Of a stretch of 64,000 nucleotides of DNA, positions 7,631 to 29,748 are shown piece by piece. The notes under the pieces were generated by a model. The model was given only the letters and a program-made list of their open reading frames with translations, was not told the origin of the DNA and did no database searches. The number at the start of each line of letters is the position of its first letter. The stretch's first letter is position 1. Position numbers and translations under genes: made by a program. Origin of the DNA: Solimonas soli DSM 21787 (GTDB taxonomy: Bacteria > Pseudomonadota > Gammaproteobacteria > Nevskiales > Nevskiaceae); contig NZ_AXDW01000001.1 of assembly GCF_000474945.1 (NCBI RefSeq), forward strand, positions 248,001 through 312,000. Direction: 5' to 3'.

Positions 7631-8239
7631 TCAGCCGCCGAGCCCTTCGGCCGCCAGCGCACGCACCACACCGGGCCGCGCCGCGATGGCCGCGGCATGG
7701 CGCGCGAGGCTCGGCCATTGGGCGATGTCGATGCCAACCGACTTGCACCAGCGCGTGGTCACGTACAGGAAGGTGTCGGCCACGCTGTAGTCGTCGCCCA
7801 GCAGATACGGCTGCGCGCCCAGCACCTTCGCCGCATACGCATAGCGGTTCGACAGCTTCTGCACGGTGCCGGCGAGCACCGCCGGCGGCGCGTCGGCGAT
7901 GGTGAAGCGCATGAACACCTGGTGCAGCTCCGACGAAACGAAGTTGAGCCACTCGGCCAGGCGGTAGCGCCCGAAACTGCCGGCCGGCGGCGCCAGGCGC
8001 GCCGCAGGTGCGAGGTCGGCGATGTACTGCAGGATGGCCGCGCTCTCGGTGAGCACCTGGCCGTCGTCGAGCACCAGCGCAGGCACGCAGCCTTTCGGGT
8101 TCACCGACAGCAGGCTGTCGCCGTCGGCCGTCAGCTTGGTGGCGTGATCGATGCGCGCCAGCGTGTGCGGCAGGCCGGCCTCTTCAAGCGCGATGTGCGC
8201 GGCCAGCGCGCATGAATCGGCGGCGTAGTACAGCTTCAT
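7631..8239 (-). CDS. Glutathione S-transferase, probably beta class
   Basis: A 202-residue cytosolic GST. The N-terminal thioredoxin-like domain starts with MKLYYAADSCALAAHIALEEAG, where Cys10 matches the cysteine of bacterial beta-class enzymes. The glutathione-binding cis-proline (VPAL) and the ESAAI turn follow at about residues 52-70, then an all-helical C-domain. It could conjugate glutathione to a reactive intermediate or act in isomerisation or reductive removal of a leaving group. AGGAG lies 8 bases before the ATG at 8239. It is first in the minus-strand unit that starts at the operator-bearing divergent promoter region. Confidence 0.88.
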   Translation of the reverse strand: MKLYYAADSCALAAHIALEEAGLPHTLARIDHATKLTADGDSLLSVNPKGCVPALVLDDGQVLTESAAILQYIADLAPAARLAPPAGSFGRYRLAEWLNFVSSELHQVFMRFTIADAPPAVLAGTVQKLSNRYAYAAKVLGAQPYLLGDDYSVADTFLYVTTRWCKSVGIDIAQWPSLARHAAAIAARPGVVRALAAEGLGG

Positions 8240-8467: not shown

Positions 8468-8497
8468 TTGTAACTGACGCTATATCAGTTTTATACT
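8468..8497 (+). promoter_or_regulatory. Candidate sigma-70 promoter overlapping the operator
   Basis: A -35-like TTGTAA (8468-8473) and a -10-like TATACT (8492-8497) are separated by 18 bases and point at the molybdopterin oxidoreductase. The spacer is almost completely occupied by the palindromic operator, which suggests control by repression. No start site is known, so this is a prediction from sequence. Confidence 0.45.
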
Positions 8498-8688: not shown

Positions 8689-10917
8689 ATGCCTACCGAC
8701 AAGGTCAACTTTGTCTGCAGGATCTGCCAGGCCTGCTGCAATCTGGTGGCGGTGCGCGACGACGGCCTGATCCGGGACATCCGCGGCGACAAGACCGATC
8801 CCGTGTACCACGGCTATTCCTGCATCAAGGGCCGTGAAGCGGCCACCGTGCATGCGCTGCCATCGCGCCTGCTGCATTCGATGAAGCGCCAGAGCGACGG
8901 CCGGCATGCGCCCATCGCCGCGCAGCGGGCGACAGCGGAGATCGCCGAACGGCTGCGGGCCATCGTCGCCGAGCACGGACCGCGCGCGGTGGCGCTGTAC
9001 ATCGGCACGCACGGCTACATCAACTTCCCCGCGCAGGCCCTGTCGTACTCGTTGATGAAGGCCATCGGCAGCCCGATGGTGTTCAACACCGCGACCATCG
9101 ACCAGCCCGGCAAGGGCATCGCCATGGCGCTGCACGGCATCTGGCTGGCGGGCACGCCGCCGATCGAATCCTGGGACGCGCTGCTGCTGGTCGGCGCCAA
9201 CCCGATCGTCTCGATGACCGGCGGCCTGGGCGTGAATCCCGCGCGCACGCTCAAGCAAGGGCAGTACCGCGGAATGAAGCTGATCGTGGTCGACCCGCGC
9301 GTGACCGAGACCGCGCGCCGTGCCGACGTCTTCCTGCAGTGCCGCCCGGGCGAGGACGCGGCGGTGCTCGCCGGCCTGATCCGTCAGCTGCTGGCCGACG
9401 GACACATCGACGCGGATTTCGTCGGCGCCGAGACCGAAGGCCTGGAAGCCTTGCGACAGGCGGTGGCGCCCTACACGCCCGAGCACGTCGCCGAGCGCGC
9501 CGGCATCCGCGCCGACGAACTGCTCGCCGCCGCGACGGTGCTCGGCGGCGCGCGGCGCGGCGCCGTGTTCTCGGGCACCGGCGCCAACATGTCCGGCCAG
9601 GCCAACATCGTCGAATACTTGGGCCGCGCGCTGAGCAGCCTGCGCGGCTGGTGGCTGCGTGCCGGCGAGGTCAAGGTCAACCCCGGCGTGCTGATCGACC
9701 CGCTGCCGCCGCTGGCGGCCTCGCCCGGGCCGTTCCCGGCGGCCGGCTTCGGCGAGAAGCTGCGCGTGCGCGGGCTCACCGACACCGCGGCCGGGCTGCC
9801 GACCGCCGCCTTGTCCGACGAGATCCTGTTGCCCGGCAGCGGACAGGTGAAGGCCTTGATCGTGGTCGGCGGCAATCCGATGGCGGCCTGGCCCGACCAG
9901 CTCAAGACCCAGGCGGCGATGGAGACGCTGGATCTGCTGGTCTGCCTGGACCCGCGCCTGGAGGGCACGAGCCGCTACGCGCATTACGTGCTGGCGCCGG
10001 CGCTGTCGCTGGAGGTGGAGAACACCACCGCCGTCAACGAACTGGTCAGCAGCTTCGGCCCCGGCTGGGGCTACGAGGCGCCTTACGCGCAGGTGTCGCC
10101 GCCGCTGCAGGCGCCGCCGCCCGGCGCCGATGTGCACGAGGAATGGTCGCTGCTCTACGACATCGCCCGCCACATGGGGCTGTCCTTGTCGATCAGGCCG
10201 CTGGCGATCCTCGATCCGGCACGCGCCGCGGCCCAGAGCAGCGAGGTCGACATGCAGCACAAGCCGACCACGCAGGACATCTGGCGCATGGTGCTCAAGG
10301 GTGCGCCGGTGGACTACGACAGCGTGCGCGCCGCCGGAGCCGGCGGCCATGTGTTCGAGCGCCCCCTGACGCGGGTCCAGCCGAAGCCCGAGGGCTGGAG
10401 CGGCCGCCTCCAGCTCGGCGCCGAACCGATGATGCAGGAGCTCGCGCGCATCGCCGCCGCCAGCGCCGCCCGCTCCGGCGCTGAAGAATTCCCGCTGCGA
10501 CTGCTCAGCCGCCGCATGCACGACGTGCTCAATTCCAGCTGGCACGACAACCCGCGTCAGCAGCGTCCCTGGGCCTACAACCCGGCGTTCATGAACCCCG
10601 ATGACCTGGCGCGCATCGGCGCCGGGTCCGGCGACATCGTCGAGATCCGCTCGGCGAGCGGCAGCATTCTCGGCGTGGCGCAGGCGGCGCCGGACGTGCG
10701 CCGCGGCTGCGTGTCGATGAGCCATTGCTGGGGCGGCAATCCCGATCAGCCCGACCGGCCCGAATCCGGAAGCAGCACCGCGCGGCTGCTGCGCAACGAT
10801 CAGGATTTCGACCCGTATTCCGGCATTCCGCTGATGAGCGGCGTGCCGGTGCGCGTCTCGCGCGCTGCCGGGCAGCTGCCGGCGACGCAGGCGGCGGCGC
10901 TCGCCGCCGTCCCCTAA
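8689..10917 (+). CDS. Molybdopterin-dependent oxidoreductase (DMSO reductase family)
   Basis: A 742-residue molybdopterin bis-guanine-dinucleotide enzyme. The N-terminal [4Fe-4S] motif is CX2CX3CX27C (Cys10, Cys13, Cys17, Cys45). It is followed by the molybdopterin domain and a C-terminal molydopterin-dinucleotide-binding domain (from about residue 600, with SRRMHDVLNSSWHDN). No twin-arginine signal is present, so it is probably cytoplasmic. There is no in-frame TGA; at the likely metal-ligand region the sequence reads TIDQPGK, making Asp138 a tentative ligand instead of Cys/Sec. No iron-sulfur or membrane partner subunit is encoded nearby. It heads the plus-strand unit with an SDR, an APH-fold kinase and a second SDR. 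The substrate is unknown. Confidence 0.88.
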   Translation: MPTDKVNFVCRICQACCNLVAVRDDGLIRDIRGDKTDPVYHGYSCIKGREAATVHALPSRLLHSMKRQSDGRHAPIAAQRATAEIAERLRAIVAEHGPRAVALYIGTHGYINFPAQALSYSLMKAIGSPMVFNTATIDQPGKGIAMALHGIWLAGTPPIESWDALLLVGANPIVSMTGGLGVNPARTLKQGQYRGMKLIVVDPRVTETARRADVFLQCRPGEDAAVLAGLIRQLLADGHIDADFVGAETEGLEALRQAVAPYTPEHVAERAGIRADELLAAATVLGGARRGAVFSGTGANMSGQANIVEYLGRALSSLRGWWLRAGEVKVNPGVLIDPLPPLAASPGPFPAAGFGEKLRVRGLTDTAAGLPTAALSDEILLPGSGQVKALIVVGGNPMAAWPDQLKTQAAMETLDLLVCLDPRLEGTSRYAHYVLAPALSLEVENTTAVNELVSSFGPGWGYEAPYAQVSPPLQAPPPGADVHEEWSLLYDIARHMGLSLSIRPLAILDPARAAAQSSEVDMQHKPTTQDIWRMVLKGAPVDYDSVRAAGAGGHVFERPLTRVQPKPEGWSGRLQLGAEPMMQELARIAAASAARSGAEEFPLRLLSRRMHDVLNSSWHDNPRQQRPWAYNPAFMNPDDLARIGAGSGDIVEIRSASGSILGVAQAAPDVRRGCVSMSHCWGGNPDQPDRPESGSSTARLLRNDQDFDPYSGIPLMSGVPVRVSRAAGQLPATQAAALAAVP

Positions 10918-21255: not shown

Positions 21256-23679
21256 CTAGGCCGGCACGGCCGCCGCATGGCGCTCGCGGCCTTCGTCGCG
21301 CAGCAGGAAATACGACAGCGCCGGAATCATCACGAGCGCGCCGGCGATGTTCCAGAGGAACATGAAGGTCAGCAGCAGGCCCATGTTGGCCTGGAACTTG
21401 ATGGGCGACCACGCCCAGGTGACCACGCCCGCCGCCATCGTGAAGCCGATCAGCAGCACCACGCGCCCGGTGAAGCCCAGGGCGCGCGCGTAGGCCTCGC
21501 GCAGGCTGCCGCCGCTGCGCTGCACCTGCAGCTGGATGCTCAGCAGGTACAAGGCGTAATCCACGCCCACGCCCACGCCCAGCGCGATCACCGGCAGCGT
21601 GGCCACCTTCATGCCGATGTTGAGTTCCACCATCAGCGCCTCGCAGATCACCGAGGTGATCACCAGCGGCACGATCGCCACGATCACCGCACGCCAGCTG
21701 CGGAACGCCAGCAGGCAGAGCAGCGAGGTGGCGGTGTAGAGAAAGATCAGCATGGTGCGGTTGGAATCGTGCACCACGATGTTGGTGATGGCCTGGATGC
21801 CGGCCGAACCCGCCGCGGGCAGAAAGTGCAGGTCGTCGGTGTCGTGCTGCTTGGCGAATGCGATCACCGTGTCGGTGACGCGTTCCAGCGTGTCGGCGCG
21901 GTGATCCGACAGGTAGGCGATCAGCGGCGCGGCCGCGCATTCGCGGTTGGTGAGGTCGGGACTGTTGGCCACCATGTAGTCGCGCGCGTTGAGCAGCACG
22001 TTCTCGCGGCGGTTGATGGTGAGCCACTTGGGCGAGCCTTCGTACAGCGCGGTGGTGGTGGAGCGGATGGCGTCGGCCGCCGACACCACCACCTGCACGC
22101 CCGGCACCGCGCGCAGCGTCTGCGCGAGACGGTCCATCTCCACCAGCGTGGAAAACTTCTCGCAGCCGCCGGGCGGTGTCTTGACGATCACCGCGTACTG
22201 GTCGGACGAAAGCCCGTAGTGCTCGTTGACGTAGGCGACGTCGCGGTTGTAGCGCGAATCGGGCCACAGCTCCGGCGCACCCTTGTCGAGATCGCCCACC
22301 TTGAGATTGCGACTGATGCCGAAAGCCACCGTCGCGACCACCGCGGCGAGCACCACCGCCAGGGTAGCCCAACGGCGTTCCGTGAACGGTAGCAGAAGGC
22401 GCTGGCCCAGCGGCTCGCCGCCCGGTAACGCTTCCCTGCGCTGGATGTCCAGGCGGCGCCTGGCCGCTCGCGGGCTCACGCCGACGTAGGACAGCAGCAC
22501 GGGCAGAAGCAGCAGCACCACGAACACCAGGATGGTCACGCCGATCGACGTCATGAGCGCGAGGTCGCGGATCACCGGGATGTCGATGACCATGAGCACG
22601 GCGAAGCCCACCACGTTGCACAGAATGGCCGCCAGGCCCGCCAGGAACAGCCTGCGGAACGTGTAGCGCGCGGCCACGTAGCGATGCGTGCCGCGCGCCA
22701 CGTCCTGCATGATGCCGTTCATCTTCTGCGTGCCGTGGCTGGCGCCGATGGCGAAGATCAGGAAGGGAACAAGCACCGAGTAAGGGTCCAGCGCATAGCC
22801 CAGCAGCTGGATGATGCCGAGCAGCCACAGCACCGCGACCAGCGCGGCGGCCACCACCAGCAGCGTCGAGCGCACGCAGCGCGTGTAGAAGTACAGCACC
22901 GCGAGCACGATCAGCACCGACGCCGCGAAGAACCCCATCACCTTGTACAGGCCGTCGATGAGATCACCCGCGAGCTGCGCGAAGCCAACGACGTGGATCT
23001 TGACCTTGTCCGAACCGTAGTCGTGGCGGATCTTGGAAAGTTCGCCGGCGAAGCGCTGGTAGTCGAAAGGCGCGCCGGTGTCCGGGTCGTGGTCCAGCAG
23101 CGGCACGAACACCGTGCTCGACTTGAGATCATTGGCGACCAGGTCGCCGATGAGGCCTGCGCGGTAGACGTTGGCGCGCAGCTGGTCGATCGACGCCTTG
23201 CTGCCGTTGTAATCTTCGGGCATCACCGCACCGGCCGAAAGGCCCTCCTCGGTGATCTCGGTCCAGCGCACCAGCGGGGTCCATAGCGACTTCATCCATG
23301 GCCTGTCGACGCCCGGGATCAGGAACACGGTGTCGCTGATCTTCTGCAAGGTCTGCAGATAGTCGGGGTCGAAGATGTCGTCGCCGCTGGTTTCCACCAC
23401 GATGCGCACCGAATTGCCGAGGCCGCCCAGTGCGTCGCGGTTCTCGAAATAGTTGCGGATGTAGGGATGCGACTGCGGAGTCATCTTGTCGAAGCTGGCG
23501 TTGACGGTGAGCATCGTCGCGCGCCAGCCCAGGAACACGGTGGCCATCGCGCACAGCACGATGAGCACGCCGCGGAAGTTGAACACCGCCCGCTCGACGA
23601 AGCCGCCGGAGCGGCGGTCGAAATCCTCGACCCGCGCGATCACCGGCATGTCGTCGATCGAGTTCTTTGCAACGGCCAT
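21256..23679 (-). CDS. MMPL/RND-family transporter
   Basis: An 807-residue inner-membrane protein with the RND architecture: one helix, a large periplasmic loop (about 50-260), five to six helices (about 260-430), a second loop (about 465-660), then the final helices. Recognisable family stretches are the TASLGVTIL-like helix-4 region (MTSIGVTILVFVV), GASHGTQKMNG and VALGVGVGVDYALYL. Proteins of this type move hydrophobic molecules and lipids between the inner membrane and periplasm. It follows the YCF48-like gene by 19 bases in the DUF1302-DUF1329-YCF48-MMPL set. AGGAG is 8 bases before the ATG at 23679. Confidence 0.9.
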   Translation of the reverse strand: MAVAKNSIDDMPVIARVEDFDRRSGGFVERAVFNFRGVLIVLCAMATVFLGWRATMLTVNASFDKMTPQSHPYIRNYFENRDALGGLGNSVRIVVETSGDDIFDPDYLQTLQKISDTVFLIPGVDRPWMKSLWTPLVRWTEITEEGLSAGAVMPEDYNGSKASIDQLRANVYRAGLIGDLVANDLKSSTVFVPLLDHDPDTGAPFDYQRFAGELSKIRHDYGSDKVKIHVVGFAQLAGDLIDGLYKVMGFFAASVLIVLAVLYFYTRCVRSTLLVVAAALVAVLWLLGIIQLLGYALDPYSVLVPFLIFAIGASHGTQKMNGIMQDVARGTHRYVAARYTFRRLFLAGLAAILCNVVGFAVLMVIDIPVIRDLALMTSIGVTILVFVVLLLLPVLLSYVGVSPRAARRRLDIQRREALPGGEPLGQRLLLPFTERRWATLAVVLAAVVATVAFGISRNLKVGDLDKGAPELWPDSRYNRDVAYVNEHYGLSSDQYAVIVKTPPGGCEKFSTLVEMDRLAQTLRAVPGVQVVVSAADAIRSTTTALYEGSPKWLTINRRENVLLNARDYMVANSPDLTNRECAAAPLIAYLSDHRADTLERVTDTVIAFAKQHDTDDLHFLPAAGSAGIQAITNIVVHDSNRTMLIFLYTATSLLCLLAFRSWRAVIVAIVPLVITSVICEALMVELNIGMKVATLPVIALGVGVGVDYALYLLSIQLQVQRSGGSLREAYARALGFTGRVVLLIGFTMAAGVVTWAWSPIKFQANMGLLLTFMFLWNIAGALVMIPALSYFLLRDEGRERHAAAVPA

Positions 23680-23698
23680 CGTGAATCTCCTGAAAGCC

Positions 23699-24778
23699 CT
23701 AGCGGCCCGTGGCGAGCGACTCGACGGCCACACCGGCGGTGCCGAAGACGGCCACCGCGTCGGGCGCGATCGGGACCACGTCGGCGAAAAGCATCGGCCG
23801 CGTGACCGTGAGCGGTTTGAACTGCCGGGCCTGCGCATCGGTACTCAACAGCACCCGCGCGTTCTGCGTGACCATGATCACGCGGCCGTCGGCCAGGGTG
23901 GCGGCGGCGTTCACCGCGGCGCCCGCGTCGGTCTCTATCGCCGTCCAGGTCTCGCCGGCATCGGCGCTGGCGTATGCGGTGCCGCGCAAGCCGAAGGCGA
24001 TCAGCTTGGCGCTGTCTCCGGTAATGCCGAAGAACGTGCCCTTGTATGGCGTCTGGTGCAGCTTGAACTTCTGTTTGCCGGCATCCCACTTGAACACCAC
24101 GCCCTGTTCGGCCGCGATGTAGAGTTCGCCGTTGATGCGCGTGATCTGGTTGAGATGCAGGCCGCGGTCGTTGTCGATCCTGTGCTGCCAGGGTTCCCAG
24201 TTCGCGCCGCCGTCGGCGGTAGCCATGATGTTGCCGAAAGGCCCCACCAGGTAGCCGTTGTGCTCATCGACGAAGAGCACGTCGAGCCATGGCAAGTCAC
24301 CGGCGCCATCGCCGCAGTTGCCCTTGACCTGCATGATGTACGGCTGGACCGAGGCGTCGCCGCCGTCGAGCTTCTGCTGGTAGTAGGCGGTCATGCGCTT
24401 GCAGGCCGCGGCACCGTCGAACTGCTTGACCCAGGTGTTGCCGCCGTCCTCGGTGTGCAGCACCACGCCGTCATGGCCCGCCGCCCAGCCCTTGCCGTCG
24501 CCGACGAACGAGAGCGCCACGAGATCGGAAGACACCGGCGACGGCTGCTGCTTCCAGGTCTTGCCTTGGTCGTCGGAGGTGGCGATCACGCCGCGCAAGC
24601 CTACTGCGACGATGCGCGTGCCGGAAAGCGCACCCGCCAGCAGCGGCGCCGACGACACCGAGTTGGGCACTTCGGGAGCCGGCGTCACCGCCGGATCCTT
24701 GAATGTGTTGGCTGCAGCCGCTCCGGCACTCGCCAGGGCCAGCCCGCATATCAGCAGATACGACAAACTGTGACGCAT
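23699..24778 (-). CDS. YCF48-like beta-propeller protein, exported
   Basis: A 359-residue protein with a clear signal peptide (cleavage likely after the alanine run near residue 23). It has repeated blades carrying the BNR/Asp-box pattern, for example SDDQGKTWK, TEDGGNTWV, TADGGANWE and SADAGETWT. The fold is that of photosystem II stability factor (YCF48/Hcf136). In non-photosynthetic proteobacteria, relatives accompany MMPL transporters and DUF1302/DUF1329, where a periplasmic scaffold or assembly role is plausible. It lies 19 bases before the MMPL gene. Confidence 0.85.
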   Translation of the reverse strand: MRHSLSYLLICGLALASAGAAAANTFKDPAVTPAPEVPNSVSSAPLLAGALSGTRIVAVGLRGVIATSDDQGKTWKQQPSPVSSDLVALSFVGDGKGWAAGHDGVVLHTEDGGNTWVKQFDGAAACKRMTAYYQQKLDGGDASVQPYIMQVKGNCGDGAGDLPWLDVLFVDEHNGYLVGPFGNIMATADGGANWEPWQHRIDNDRGLHLNQITRINGELYIAAEQGVVFKWDAGKQKFKLHQTPYKGTFFGITGDSAKLIAFGLRGTAYASADAGETWTAIETDAGAAVNAAATLADGRVIMVTQNARVLLSTDAQARQFKPLTVTRPMLFADVVPIAPDAVAVFGTAGVAVESLATGR

Positions 24779-24889
24779 GAAAATCGTCTCCGGGACAGTG
24801 CGGGCTTTGGCCGGCCTTCCCTACGATAGAGCCCGTCGGCGAGCGAGCGGAACGCGAACCGCCTCGCCGTCGCCTGTCCTCGATTCGAC

Positions 24890-24919
24890 GTCGCCCCGGT
24901 CGGCCGGACCCGGGGCGAC
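24890..24919 (-). promoter_or_regulatory. Strong intercistronic hairpin after the DUF1329 gene
   Basis: GTCGCCCCGG (24890-24899) and CCGGGGCGAC (24910-24919) form a perfect 10-base stem with a 10-base loop. In the minus-strand transcript it starts 13 bases after the DUF1329 stop. No T-run follows, so it is more likely an mRNA 3'-end stabiliser or partial attenuator between the two envelope genes and the rest of the unit than a true terminator. Confidence 0.55.
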
Positions 24920-24932
24920 GCCGCCAAGGCGC

Positions 24933-26300
24933 CTAGCGCACGCCCTGCTGGAGCAGGTAGTCCGGCGAGGTGTCGTTTTCAGGACGCGGCTTTTCCAGCG
25001 AACGCATGCCGCAGCCTTCGTCGCAGCCCATGTGCGCAAGGAAAGCCACCGTGTTCCTGGAATGATCGAACACGATGTTGGCCGGCGTGTAGGCGCTGGG
25101 ATGGAAGTAGTCCTGCGTTTGCGGAGAGATCATGGTGCGGTAGTACTTGCCGCTGGCGTCCCAGCCCGACCACATCACTTCGTTCCAGGTGTCCTCGTCG
25201 AGGTAGAAACGCTTGCGCGCTACGACATGGCGCTTGCCCGGCGCGAGCGTGGCTTCCATCACCCAGACACGGCGCAGCTCCCAGCGGAACTTGTCGGTCT
25301 TGAAGCTGCCCGGCAGGGCGATATCGGCGACTTTGGTGTGGAACTGGAAATCGTAGTCGTTGGCGGGAATGTACATCTCCTGCTTGCCGATCAGCTTCCA
25401 GTTGTAACGGTCGAGCTTGCCGTAGAAAGTGTCACCCTCGTCACCGAAGTCGGCGCCGCCATAGGTGGCATTGGGCGTGTCGTAGCTGACTTCCGGTGCC
25501 AGGCGCACCCGGCGCTGGCCCGGATTGTAGATCCAGACCGACGCGTCGTTCTTGGCATAGCTGACGTAGTTCCACGTGACGACCGCCGTGCCGTTCTGAC
25601 GCGGCGGCGCGACGAGATGCAGAAGCTGCCGCGCCGTGAACGGCGTGCCGATTTTGTCCGGCGCGCTGAAGGGATGGTAGAAGTAATCTTCGGACCGATT
25701 GATGAAGTTGAGCCGGCCCGCACTGTCGACCAGGTAAGCCTCGAAGGTGAGATCCATCTGCGGCCAGCGAAAGCGCATGTTGGAATTCCACTGCACTTCG
25801 GCGCCAGTCTTGGGGATCGGGAACGGCACGCCGGGATGCGCGCCTTCCACGCCGTCGATCTCGCCCACCATCTTGGCGTGCGTGGCGTTGTAGATCATGC
25901 CCTCCTCGGCGTACTTGGGAAACGCAGCGGTCCGGCGCGTCGGGTACACGTCGATGAAGAAGGTGTCGGGATAACGCTCCATCAGGTACAGCTGGCCTTC
26001 GGACAGCTTGTCCTTGTACTTCTCCTTGTTCTTGTTGTCGATGCGGAACAGCGGCTTGTCAGCTGGGAACGGGTTGATCAGCTTCATGTCGCCAGCCTTG
26101 GCGCCGGGCGGCGGCGTGGTCAGGCCGCCGGTGTAAGCCGGGATGGTGCCTTCTGCGTTGCCGGCCTTCTCGGCGCCCCAGGGGGTGAGCGTGGTACCGA
26201 GCTGCTTGGCCTCGTCCTCGCTCACGGCAGCCGAAGCGGCGCTGGCGCCAAAAGTCGCAAGGACTGCTACGGCCAGCATCGATTTCATCTTCATTTGCAC
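24933..26300 (-). CDS. DUF1329 exported protein (LolB-like envelope factor)
   Basis: A 455-residue protein with a Sec signal peptide (cleavage near residue 25, after ASAASA) and the DUF1329 pattern: an N-terminal KQLGTTLTPWGAEKAGNAEG segment and later WVYNPGQRRVRLAPE-like and WELRRVWVMEATL strands. DUF1329 proteins partner with DUF1302 in the outer membrane/periplasm and have a LolB-like fold (recollection). They are linked to uptake or tolerance of hydrophobic substrates. Start is GTG 26300 with GGAGG 4 bases upstream, or ATG 26294. Eleven bases separate it from DUF1302, so coupling is likely. Confidence 0.9.
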   Translation of the reverse strand: MQMKMKSMLAVAVLATFGASAASAAVSEDEAKQLGTTLTPWGAEKAGNAEGTIPAYTGGLTTPPPGAKAGDMKLINPFPADKPLFRIDNKNKEKYKDKLSEGQLYLMERYPDTFFIDVYPTRRTAAFPKYAEEGMIYNATHAKMVGEIDGVEGAHPGVPFPIPKTGAEVQWNSNMRFRWPQMDLTFEAYLVDSAGRLNFINRSEDYFYHPFSAPDKIGTPFTARQLLHLVAPPRQNGTAVVTWNYVSYAKNDASVWIYNPGQRRVRLAPEVSYDTPNATYGGADFGDEGDTFYGKLDRYNWKLIGKQEMYIPANDYDFQFHTKVADIALPGSFKTDKFRWELRRVWVMEATLAPGKRHVVARKRFYLDEDTWNEVMWSGWDASGKYYRTMISPQTQDYFHPSAYTPANIVFDHSRNTVAFLAHMGCDEGCGMRSLEKPRPENDTSPDYLLQQGVR

Positions 26301-26311
26301 GGTGCCTCCAA

Positions 26312-28105
26312 TCAGAAAGTGGTCTTGGCCGTCAGCATGATGCGGCCGCGATCATTGTAGAAATAAGTGCCGGAGCCGCCCGGGTAGTAGCCCGCATCGT
26401 TGACGTCTTCATGCTTGGCATAGGAGCCCTGGTACGACAGCGTGACTTCGTAGAGCTGGCGGATGAAGGCCTTGATGCCGGCCGAATACACCATGCTGCC
26501 CTGGTTTCCACCGCCGATGCCAGCGTAGTTGCCGGTGATGCCGTAGCTGACGCTGATCGGCGCGGACAGATCGACGCCGGCAAAGGTCTGCGGCCACTGC
26601 GGCTCGACATTGACCTGTGCCGCCAGATAATTGTCGGTGGAGCAGCCGGCACGCTTGCCGCCGCTGCCCGGCGGGCAATTGGCGGTACCGTTTCCGTTGT
26701 AGAGCTCTTCGTGATCGGTGATCTTGTCGAGGTGGGTATAGGCGATTTCGGCGATGACCTGCCCCGTGGGCGCGACGAAGGTGGTGGGCAGCACGATGAT
26801 CGCGTTGACCACGGCGTTGAGCAGGTTGCCGCGCGGGCCCCTGCCATCGGCCGCGATGCCCACGTTGTTGAGCGCGCTGTCGAAGCGGTACGAGACTTCG
26901 CCCGCGTAGCTGATGCCGCCCAGCGCCTGGCTGTAGCTGGCGCCGACCAGCTGCGTGCCACGGTTATAGGCCAGGGCATAGGTGCCGGCGTTGAGGCCGC
27001 CTTCCGCACTGGGCGTCGGGCTGGTCTGAACCACCTCGGGCGCGCTGTAGGGCGTGACCTCGTCGAACTTGCGGTAATACAGGCCCAACTGGCCACCGCC
27101 CCACCAGGGCGTGGCATAGCGCATCATTGCGCCGTAGTTGCCCTCTGCGTCGGGCTCGTTCGCCGACTTGCGGGCCAGGAACACCGGCTGGTCGGTCGAC
27201 GCGCCGACGACGGCGCCGGGCAGCACGGTGCCGGTGAAGAAGCGGTCCGGCCCCTGGAACAGCCAGCCCACCGCACCCAGGTACGTGCCACCTTCGGGAT
27301 TGCGGCTCGGCTTCCAGTCGAGGAAGTACTGCACCGCCACCGACAGGTTGCCGGTCAGCTGCGCCACCGAGGAAATCTGCGCCACGGGCAGGAACACCTC
27401 CTTGGTCTCGATGCCGGGGCTGGTGATCGCCTTGAGGCCGTCGATCGGCGCCTGCGAGTACGAGATCGCCTGGTTGCCGAAGAACAGGCCTTCGCCCCAG
27501 TAGATGGTGTGCTGGCCGGCCTTGACGTTGACCGAGACGTCTCCCAACTGGAACAGTGCGAAGGCGAAGGCATCGAGCACTTCGCCGCTCGGCCCGCGGT
27601 AGTAGCGCTTGGTGTAGTTGGAATACTGGTTGCCGTAATAGCTCGACAGCTCCGAGTATGGCACGCTCACGGGTATCGCAGTCCCCGCGCCCGGGCTGCC
27701 TTCGGGGATTACGAAAGTGCTGTTGTAGGTGCCAGGATGGGTCTTGACGTCGGTGTCGTGGTAGGCCTGGTCATACCAGCCCGCGCCCGACACGCGCACG
27801 CCGTAGCGGTTCTGGTACGACAGGTCGACTTCTTCGAGCACGTCGAGACGGGCATTGATGATGTCGCCCTGGTCGAACTTGTAGTCGCTTTCGTCGTTGA
27901 AGGTGTTGCCGGCGATCTTGTCATCGCGATCCTGCACCCGCACGCCCGTGTTGAATCGCAGGGTAGTGTCGGCGTTGAGCCGCCAGTCCGGCACGCCCAG
28001 ATTGATCGGCGCCGCTTGCGCCGCGCCCATCGCGGTAAGCCCCGCCGCGACGGCGAACGGCTGTTTCATCAGCTTCAAATATCGCCAGCTTTTTCTCTTG
28101 TTCAT
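26312..28105 (-). CDS. DUF1302 outer-membrane protein
   Basis: A 597-residue protein with a signal peptide (about residues 1-31, ending AAQA) and many alternating beta strands, ending in a C-terminal phenylalanine (TAKTTF) as in outer-membrane barrels. The opening of the mature protein (NLGVPDWRLNADTTLRFN) is typical of DUF1302. It is probably a channel or receptor for a poorly soluble substrate. GGAGGAGAGAG directly precedes the ATG at 28105. It is the first gene of a roughly 14-kb minus-strand unit and faces the operator region. Confidence 0.9.
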   Translation of the reverse strand: MNKRKSWRYLKLMKQPFAVAAGLTAMGAAQAAPINLGVPDWRLNADTTLRFNTGVRVQDRDDKIAGNTFNDESDYKFDQGDIINARLDVLEEVDLSYQNRYGVRVSGAGWYDQAYHDTDVKTHPGTYNSTFVIPEGSPGAGTAIPVSVPYSELSSYYGNQYSNYTKRYYRGPSGEVLDAFAFALFQLGDVSVNVKAGQHTIYWGEGLFFGNQAISYSQAPIDGLKAITSPGIETKEVFLPVAQISSVAQLTGNLSVAVQYFLDWKPSRNPEGGTYLGAVGWLFQGPDRFFTGTVLPGAVVGASTDQPVFLARKSANEPDAEGNYGAMMRYATPWWGGGQLGLYYRKFDEVTPYSAPEVVQTSPTPSAEGGLNAGTYALAYNRGTQLVGASYSQALGGISYAGEVSYRFDSALNNVGIAADGRGPRGNLLNAVVNAIIVLPTTFVAPTGQVIAEIAYTHLDKITDHEELYNGNGTANCPPGSGGKRAGCSTDNYLAAQVNVEPQWPQTFAGVDLSAPISVSYGITGNYAGIGGGNQGSMVYSAGIKAFIRQLYEVTLSYQGSYAKHEDVNDAGYYPGGSGTYFYNDRGRIMLTAKTTF

Positions 28106-28429: not shown

Positions 28430-28448
28430 AACTGAAATATACTCAGCT
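28430..28448. promoter_or_regulatory. Palindromic operator, copy B
   Basis: AACTGAAATATACTCAGCT has arms AACTGA and TCAGCT around 7 bases, the same 6-7-6 geometry as the copy at 8472. Its spacer contains the -10 box of the candidate minus-strand promoter for DUF1302, so binding would block transcription. Confidence 0.55.
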
Positions 28449-28464
28449 ATTGGCCGACAAGCAA
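28436..28464 (-). promoter_or_regulatory. Candidate promoter for the DUF1302 unit
   Basis: On the minus strand a -35-like TTGCTT (28464-28459) and a -10-like TATATT (28441-28436) are separated by 17 bases. Operator copies B and C cover the -10 and -35 boxes respectively. The -35 match is poor, which leaves the call tentative. Confidence 0.4.
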
Positions 28465-28477
28465 CATATCGTCAGTT
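28459..28477. promoter_or_regulatory. Operator half-site, copy C
   Basis: AAGCAACATATCGTCAGTT keeps one perfect arm (TCAGTT) and the CGATATG-like spacer on the opposite strand, but the other arm matches at only 3 of 6 positions. Its centre lies 29 bases from copy B, and it covers the -35 box of the candidate promoter. It may be a weak or cooperative site. Confidence 0.4.
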
Positions 28478-28565
28478 TTTTTTCGAGTCGGGATTCGCGA
28501 GCGGCAAGCACGAGCCGACGATCGCAGGCCGGCCTGCAGCGGCCGCGCTTGTCCACCGGCGCATC

Positions 28566-28584
28566 AGCTGATATATCGTCAACT
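28566..28584. promoter_or_regulatory. Palindromic operator, copy D
   Basis: AGCTGATATATCGTCAACT has arms AGCTGA/TCAACT (one mismatch) around 7 bases and matches the reverse strand of copy A at 15 of 19 positions. It lies about 100 bases before the tetR start, suitable for autoregulation. Confidence 0.5.
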
Positions 28585-28687: not shown

Positions 28688-29431
28688 ATGAGCCAGACGA
28701 TCACGACCAACAAGCAGGGGCAGGAACTCGGACGCAAGGGACACAACTCCAGACTCAGGCTCATGGAAGCCGCAGAACGCCTGCTGCGGACGCAGTCGCC
28801 GGTGACCCTGACGGCAGTGTCGATCGCCAAGGAAGCCAAGATGTCGTCGGCCGCCTTCTACCTGTACTTCGAAGACGTGCGCAACGTCCTGCTCGCGCTC
28901 AGCGAAGCCGCGGCCACCGAGATGGCCGAGGCTCACCAGATCCTTCAGCAGCCCTGGGACGCCAAGGAACCGGATTTCAGGCACGCCTTCGATCTGGTTT
29001 CGGCTTTCTACAGGGTCTACGAACGTCATAGCTCGGTGTTGCGTTACTGCAACCTGGAAGCCGACCGCGGCGACGTGCGCTTCGAGCAAGTACGGCTCAG
29101 CATCGTGGTTCCATTCTTCGAACAGGTTGCCGAGCGCATCTACGCGGCGTCGGCGAAAGACGCACGGCGTTCGCGCGGTGATGCCTATGCCGAGGCGATC
29201 GTGCTGGTCTCCGCCATGGAGCGCAGTGCATCCAGCGACCCCAAGAAAGTGCAGAGCACCATCGGAACCAAGCGCCTGCAAGAGGCCACGGCGCGGCTGC
29301 TCGCCTGGCGCCTGAGCCCGTCTGCGGCCCATTCCATGTCACTCGGAACCGCAGACCCGCCGGCCAAGCCGGCCAAGCCTGGCCCGGCGAAAGCAACGAG
29401 GAAAAAAGCCAAGGCGGTTCGAGCCGGCTGA
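28688..29431 (+). CDS. TetR/AcrR-family transcriptional regulator
   Basis: A 247-residue regulator. The N-terminal DNA-binding domain occupies about residues 20-70 with recognition-helix text SSAAFYLYFEDVRNVL. The helical ligand-binding domain follows, and the last ~25 residues are rich in Lys, Ala and Pro, a basic tail that is unusual for the family. It is divergent from the DUF1302 unit and has three copies of the palindrome in its upstream region. A repressor that responds to the pathway substrate and controls both its own gene and the cluster is the simplest reading. The Shine-Dalgarno match is weak. Confidence 0.87.
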   Translation: MSQTITTNKQGQELGRKGHNSRLRLMEAAERLLRTQSPVTLTAVSIAKEAKMSSAAFYLYFEDVRNVLLALSEAAATEMAEAHQILQQPWDAKEPDFRHAFDLVSAFYRVYERHSSVLRYCNLEADRGDVRFEQVRLSIVVPFFEQVAERIYAASAKDARRSRGDAYAEAIVLVSAMERSASSDPKKVQSTIGTKRLQEATARLLAWRLSPSAAHSMSLGTADPPAKPAKPGPAKATRKKAKAVRAG

Positions 29432-29663: not shown

Positions 29664-29748
29664 TGGTGCCCACGGAGAGACTCGAACTCCCATGACTTTC
29701 GCCGCTACCACCTCAAGGTAGTGTGTCTACCAATTCCACCACGTGGGC
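29664..29748 (-). tRNA. tRNA-Leu(GAG)
   Basis: The minus strand starts GCCCACGTGGTGGAATTGG and ends TCTCCGTGGGCACCA, giving a 7-base acceptor stem, a leucine-type long variable arm, the GTTCGAGTC T-loop and an encoded CCA. The anticodon stem-loop CTACC-TTGAGGT-GGTAG gives anticodon GAG. The position next to secG equals leuU-secG of E. coli. Confidence 0.97.

Follow-up and report, generated by a model that had tools for sequence, protein, structure and literature searches.

A conserved palindrome as the predicted operator of a TetR-family regulator in a catabolic island of Solimonas soli

We consider it likely that a TetR-family repressor uses the palindrome AACTGAC-N5-GTCAGTT as its operator; this repressor would control about 19 sites in a catabolic island of Solimonas soli DSM 21787 and would be released from them by a pathway intermediate. 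The sites, their intergenic placement in the island, their conservation and their pairing with one family of TetR proteins can be read directly in the genome sequences. The gene of the proposed repressor lies in the window, by which we mean the whole 64-kb stretch of DNA that was analyzed (C1:248001-312000 of the 4.19-Mb genome G000); numbers without the C1 prefix are window positions (Table 1). The sequence-only reading had suggested, from four sites, that an undescribed regulon and its regulator might be present here. This suggestion is supported and now extends to about 19 sites over 131 kb.

Table 1. Features of the window and borders of the island
Feature	Position	Strand	Remarks
tRNA-Met(cat)	C1:146624-146700		left island border
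GST-like gene	7631..8239	-	predicted regulon member; named from sequence reading only
Operator, AACTGACGCTATATCAGTT	8472..8490	.	exact match; between GST-like gene (minus) and molybdopterin oxidoreductase gene (plus)
Molybdopterin oxidoreductase gene	8689..10917	+	predicted regulon member; operator 8472 upstream
MMPL/HAE3-like RND transporter gene, AmeD-like	21256..23679	-	family search; own start call
Ycf48/BNR-like gene, AmeC-like	23699..24778	-	family search
DUF1329 gene, AmeB-like	24933..26225	-	343 bits (longer ORF to 26300); own start call
DUF1302 gene, first of leftward unit, AmeA-like	26312..28105	-	331 bits (longer ORF to 28141); own start call
Operator 1, AACTGAAATATACTCAGCT	28430..28448	.	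exact match; score 23.5
Predicted DUF1302-unit promoter	28436..28464	-	-35 TTGCTT 28464-28459, 17 bp, -10 TATATT 28441-28436
Half operator	28459..28477	.	conserved in its right arm, degenerate in its left; score 13.9
Operator 2, AGCTGATATATCGTCAACT	28566..28584	.	exact match; score 21.8
TetR-family regulator gene, proposed operator reader	28688..29431	+	247 aa; TetR_N, TetR_C_38
tRNA-Leu(gag)	29664..29748	-	right island border

Distribution and conservation of the motif

In a set of 92 sites (84 distinct) the two arms of the palindrome are nearly fixed while the five bases in the middle are free, which is the arrangement expected for a TetR dimer. The exact pattern A[AG]CTGA-N7-TCA[AG][CT]T occurs in the 64-kb window only at 8472-8490, 28430-28448 and 28566-28584. 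When up to two mismatches were allowed, both strands together gave 30 matches, versus 10.85 expected from shuffled sequences (standard deviation 4.30, largest 27). Two good copies and a half-conserved third copy had been described beside the tetR gene, with a recurrence some 20 kb away; all three copies were confirmed, and the recurrence is the exact copy at 8472. Operator 1 is identical in the homologous locus L127 and differs by one base in the Hydrocarboniphaga locus L126, which is the same DNA as genome G008, and its arms are mostly invariant in an alignment of seven loci. Operator 2 lies about 104 bp upstream of the start codon of the window TetR and has a counterpart in L126 at 9853 (score 20.4), where a counterpart of the half operator is also present. 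The position in G008 that is equivalent to operator 8472 likewise carries a site.

The complete genome was covered by pattern searches, whereas matrix scans were applied to 214 kb (C1:118000-331999) and to eight other stretches (~121 kb). A looser pattern was found at 18 distinct places in the whole genome, compared with 5 for a reversed-pattern control. Nine of the 18 fit the original exact pattern and seven of these nine lie inside the island, which makes up 3.1% of the genome; the other two are C1:512543, within a gene, and C5:1809. The first matrix was trained on 10 sites, and every one of its top 20 matches in the 214 kb fell in intergenic DNA of the island, 10 of them being sites on which it had not been trained. 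With the second matrix (16 training sites, all from G000) and a hit threshold of 17, which was fixed after the G000 scores were known, the 214 kb yielded 19 matches, 16 of them the matrix's own training sites. The centers of all 19 are intergenic and in the island, although intergenic DNA accounts for only 8.3% of this piece by our own gene calls, from which the G000 gene starts and intergenic status were also taken.

Markov shuffles of the same 214 kb gave a mean of 0.15 matches (20 shuffles, largest 1), shuffles of its intergenic DNA alone a mean of 0.04 (100 shuffles, largest 1), and the eight other stretches contained a single match of at least 17, located within a gene. The control pattern, the shuffles and the restriction of intergenic matches to the island show that the motif is not randomly placed. 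To avoid circularity, a third matrix was built solely from distant loci, using their five distinct TetR-side sites (originally located with a G000 matrix); it placed its best 16 matches in the 214 kb in intergenic DNA of the island, with chance matches mixing in lower down the list. A matrix made from the three window sites put 18 of its best 20 matches in intergenic DNA and 19 in the island.

The motif is conserved upstream of orthologous genes, including those of two genera other than that of the window, represented by G008 and G021. Orthologues were paired as reciprocal best hits, and the counts that follow are of genes, so that a divergent pair shares one site. In G008, which belongs to the same family as the window genome, 20 of the 21 site-bearing G000 genes keep the site and 63 genes have it in neither genome; the single miss is a gene whose start is 143 bp away from the edge of its contig. 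All 12 site-bearing genes with counterparts in G021 keep theirs, 37 genes lack it in both genomes and one has it in G021 but not in G000. G004 is more distant, and there the site is retained at four of seven genes and lacking at three, with eight genes having it in neither. Between loci, the sites are 58-100% identical while their 40-bp flanks are 10-47% identical, two close pairs excepted. Genome G055 was found to be motif-rich (13/10 versus 4/1 in the control), with the window-type TetR not above background.

The island and its predicted promoters

The 19 sites all lie in an island of about 131 kb (C1:146700-277664, window 1-29664) bordered by two tRNA genes. In Escherichia coli K-12 the corresponding order is compact: pnp-rpsO-truB-rbfA-infB-nusA-rimP-tRNA-Met-argG-yhbX-tRNA-Leu(GAG)-secG-glmM-folP-ftsH. 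The genes flanking the island, which we take to be the same by length and sequence alone, are rimP-nusA-infB beside tRNA-Met and secG beside tRNA-Leu. The shared flanking genes therefore appear to place the mostly catabolic 131 kb in a conserved housekeeping neighborhood. A search for a repeat of the tRNA-Leu end at the opposite border of the island gave nothing convincing.

We called 117 genes of at least 80 aa in the island, among them at least six TetR genes and one AraC gene as regulators. Searches that covered part of these genes returned a Rieske oxygenase, P450s, an acyl-CoA dehydrogenase, an acyl-CoA synthetase, MaoC hydratases, a ferredoxin, an amidohydrolase, APH, SnoaL, GST, a ChsH2 OB-fold, a TonB receptor, an FAD-binding protein, an OYE-type reductase, a thiolase, SDR, a CaiB-type CoA-transferase, an enoyl-CoA hydratase, a lipid-transfer/thiolase protein and an aldehyde dehydrogenase. 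For one acyl-CoA dehydrogenase, the nearest relatives of known structure are Tcur3483 and 4x28, both steroid side-chain enzymes. The amidohydrolase is closest to 4dzi, then to PtmU3 and more weakly to DitZ, and one P450 matches many others, including CYP125 and P450terp. These findings point to a steroid- or terpenoid-like substrate, and no more than that. The MMPL gene of the leftward unit scored 149 bits with the HAE3 model TIGR00921, below its cut-off of 351.9, and its assignment is at the family level only.

A plausible promoter had been proposed under two of the copies, and it was recovered under those at 28430 (-10) and 28459 (-35) as a weak match to the consensus (8/12), which a stock scan with a 9-of-12 rule omitted. 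The -10 of this leftward promoter falls within operator 1, and its -35 is overlapped by the left arm of the half operator. The same pair of elements, TTG-17 bp-TATATT, overlaps the TetR-side operator in 9 of 12 loci, the window included, and is absent from L132, L135 and L137; in six of the nine the promoter is displaced along the operator by two bases, its spacer length unchanged. Operator 8472 occupies the spacer between a -35 TTGTAA and a -10 TATACT. As predicted from sequence, the promoter overlap at 28430 and 8472 puts both operators in the usual positions for a repressor. Promoter-like matches of at least 8 accompany 34 of 75 site-gene arrangements (9 of 26 in G000 alone) versus 15 of 109 control windows, a count to be given little weight, because the A+T richness of the operator biases it and orthologous sites enter it repeatedly.

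Pairing of the operator with the window TetR

The window TetR matches TetR_N with 24.2 bits (E 2.9e-5), only 0.2 bits above the cut-off of 24, and TetR_C_38 with 41.3 bits (cut-off 23.9). Its AlphaFold2 model (mean pLDDT 82.6, pTM 0.71) has the all-helical TetR fold with helices 2-3 as the HTH. The top structural match is EthR (TM-score up to 0.82 by the EthR chain and 0.60-0.67 by the model, 20% identity), with FasR and FadR, both solved with acyl-CoA, lower in the list. A profile of 15 homologues also ranks EthR best among solved structures (E 6.5e-10). In the N-terminal arm (residues 8-18), N8, G11, Q12, G15, K17 and G18 are invariant in the 15 aligned homologues, and this arm may contact the DNA minor groove.

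Homologues were sought in the genome_contigs collection (84,980 species) with two short peptide patterns, a non-exhaustive search; three window-type TetRs served as queries. In a class-wide draw of 369 genomes, only the window's own genome matched at E 1e-15. The collection gave 14 homologous loci, of which 12 encode proteins at least 45% identical to the window TetR. These come from Hydrocarboniphaga, a Verrucomicrobiaceae-labelled MAG, Fulvimonas, Aestuariicella, Zhongshania (two loci), Pseudomonas M47T1, Spongiibacter, Pseudomaricurvus and three MAGs. At loci of lower G+C, tblastn (E 1e-12) with island proteins replaced gene calling. Adding the window and G004 to the 12 makes 14 loci, with Zhongshania counted twice. 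In 13 of these 14, the 300 bp upstream of the TetR gene contain a site scoring at least 18.6; with remote homologues included, the count is 13 of 16. When each of the 13 upstream stretches was shuffled 1000 times, the observed score was never reached, except once for L130. The exception among the 14 is Fulvimonas (L128), where the best score directly upstream is 7.4, although the gene row that includes the TetR is preceded by a site of 17.5. For the remote homologues L138 (32%) and L139 (28%), the 300 bp upstream of the TetR gene contain no site.

In the Verrucomicrobiaceae-labelled MAG (L127, RYN_599), genes sharing about 50-80% identity with those of the island occur together with operators, and the contig may be misbinned or transferred. 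L138, from Sphingobium sp. TCM1, holds two sites (3304 and 7592, scores 18.9 and 20.0) preceding catabolic genes. As these copies lie near a 32%-identical TetR, the operator may reach into Alphaproteobacteria.

A different island TetR could read the operator, mainly the PsrA-like protein encoded at C1:205537-206262 or the 211-aa protein encoded at C1:187722-188357, the window TetR being merely regulated. The best site of the island (25.5) is 132 bp upstream of where the 205537 gene starts, but only 42 bp separate it from the divergent SDR gene. Close orthologous loci of this gene in G008 (85%) and G021 (72%) also hold sites, which makes three of three with G000, and a site precedes both the 187722 gene and its G008 orthologue (83%). 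The G021 assembly has sites and a 205537-type TetR, whereas a window-type TetR was not found in it. The latter may be missing by chance, because the contig expected to carry it has its first base 1,250 bp ahead of the transporter gene. In genomes that have both the operator and the window-type TetR, the best hits of the 205537 protein are weak: E 3.6e-6 in G004, 29% identity in Fulvimonas (G058), 32% in Pseudomonas M47T1 (G061) and 33-40% in G059, G060, G062, G063 and G064. Over the 4-21 kb covered at each of the 14 homologous loci, the matches listed by tblastn with island proteins (E 1e-12) included neither the 205537 nor the 187722 protein, nor any other island regulator. Around relatives of the 205537 protein that are not close orthologues (27-40%), a site of at least 17 within about 1.5 kb on either side was found at 0 of 13 loci, as opposed to 13 of 14 for the window-type family, a difference that indirectly supports the regulator originally proposed. 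With the NCBIfam PsrA model NF053516 the 205537 protein scores 70.3 bits, below the cut-off of 300. We regard a reader other than the window TetR as unlikely.

It also seems improbable to us that two regulators, the window TetR and a second TetR, both bind the motif, in competition or in a cascade. Three island TetR genes are indeed preceded by sites, but the C-terminal families of two such proteins differ (TetR_C_38 versus TetR_C_30), and the sequences give no sign that both recognition helices read the same DNA. That the palindromes are chance occurrences or a structural repeat without a regulator (terminator stems or a mobile palindrome) was rejected as barely credible. One copy does belong to a minus-strand terminator-like match, but the intergenic placement, the conservation against diverged flanks, the promoter overlap and the combination of a variable middle with fixed arms all oppose it.

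Proposed regulation and comparison with known systems

The preferred reading is that the window TetR acts as a repressor at the palindrome. As the class of TetR repressors requires, palindromic candidate operators are predicted both at the regulator's own promoter and at target promoters. In the absence of substrate, a TetR dimer would bind the ~19 operators across the 131-kb island and block the promoters there, including that of the leftward DUF1302-DUF1329-BNR-MMPL unit, and it would repress its own gene through the sites at 28430 and 28566. Once the ligand pocket was filled by a hydrophobic intermediate of the pathway, or by the CoA thioester of that intermediate, the repressor would be released and the pathway would be made. 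A ligand of this hydrophobic or CoA-bound kind is likely from the fold comparison, because EthR is nearest and the acyl-CoA-binding FasR and FadR are among the matches. That the protein binds the motif, acts as a repressor and not as an activator and regulates its own gene is inferred, as are the inducer and the steroid- or terpenoid-like nature of the substrate.

Since the repressor and the site recur together in distantly related bacteria, one repressor probably controls the whole degradation pathway. A broader proposal, which we put forward tentatively and hold to be somewhat short of probable, is that an undescribed TetR is the master switch of an undescribed pathway for a large hydrophobic compound, with regulator and operator kept together across Gammaproteobacteria and perhaps as far as Sphingobium. 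If true, the regulon would reveal which genes make up the pathway and could serve directly as a biosensor for the substrate. Many island genes with only loose annotation are tied by the present results to one predicted switch, and the operator offers an annotation-free way of searching for the pathway in other genomes.

The kind of system is familiar, a TetR repressor regulon; what looks new is the regulator together with its operator, and perhaps also the pathway. Among the literature matches listed, from a search that most subscription papers lay beyond, there was no publication on the window TetR or the motif. EthR of Mycobacterium tuberculosis is closest by profile and structure, yet its identity to the window TetR is only about 20%. 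The motifs of KstR and PsrA are not known to resemble AACTGAC-N5-GTCAGTT. KstR, KstR2, PsrA, FadP and EdcR share with the system proposed here a TetR-type repressor whose operators lie at the promoters of a single catabolic pathway and also before the repressor gene itself (EdcR and KstR/HsdR autoregulation, PMC8700777; KstR2 repressor, PMC4810484; PsrA and FadP regulons, PMC5343134). The proposed operator of EdcR, TnnCnnTACnAnTnGTAnnGnnA (PMC8700777), is unlike the present motif when the two are compared by eye.

The leftward unit has the same four-part make-up and order, compared by family, as AmeABCD of Castellaniella defragrans, described as a monoterpene efflux cassette of a DUF1302 outer-membrane protein, a DUF1329 periplasmic protein, a Ycf48-related periplasmic protein and an HAE3-type RND transporter (PMC6394551). 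The word 'regulator' is absent from the main text of that paper (PMC6394551). The DUF1302-DUF1329-Ycf48-MMPL cassette (21256-28105) and the window TetR gene have a common promoter region.
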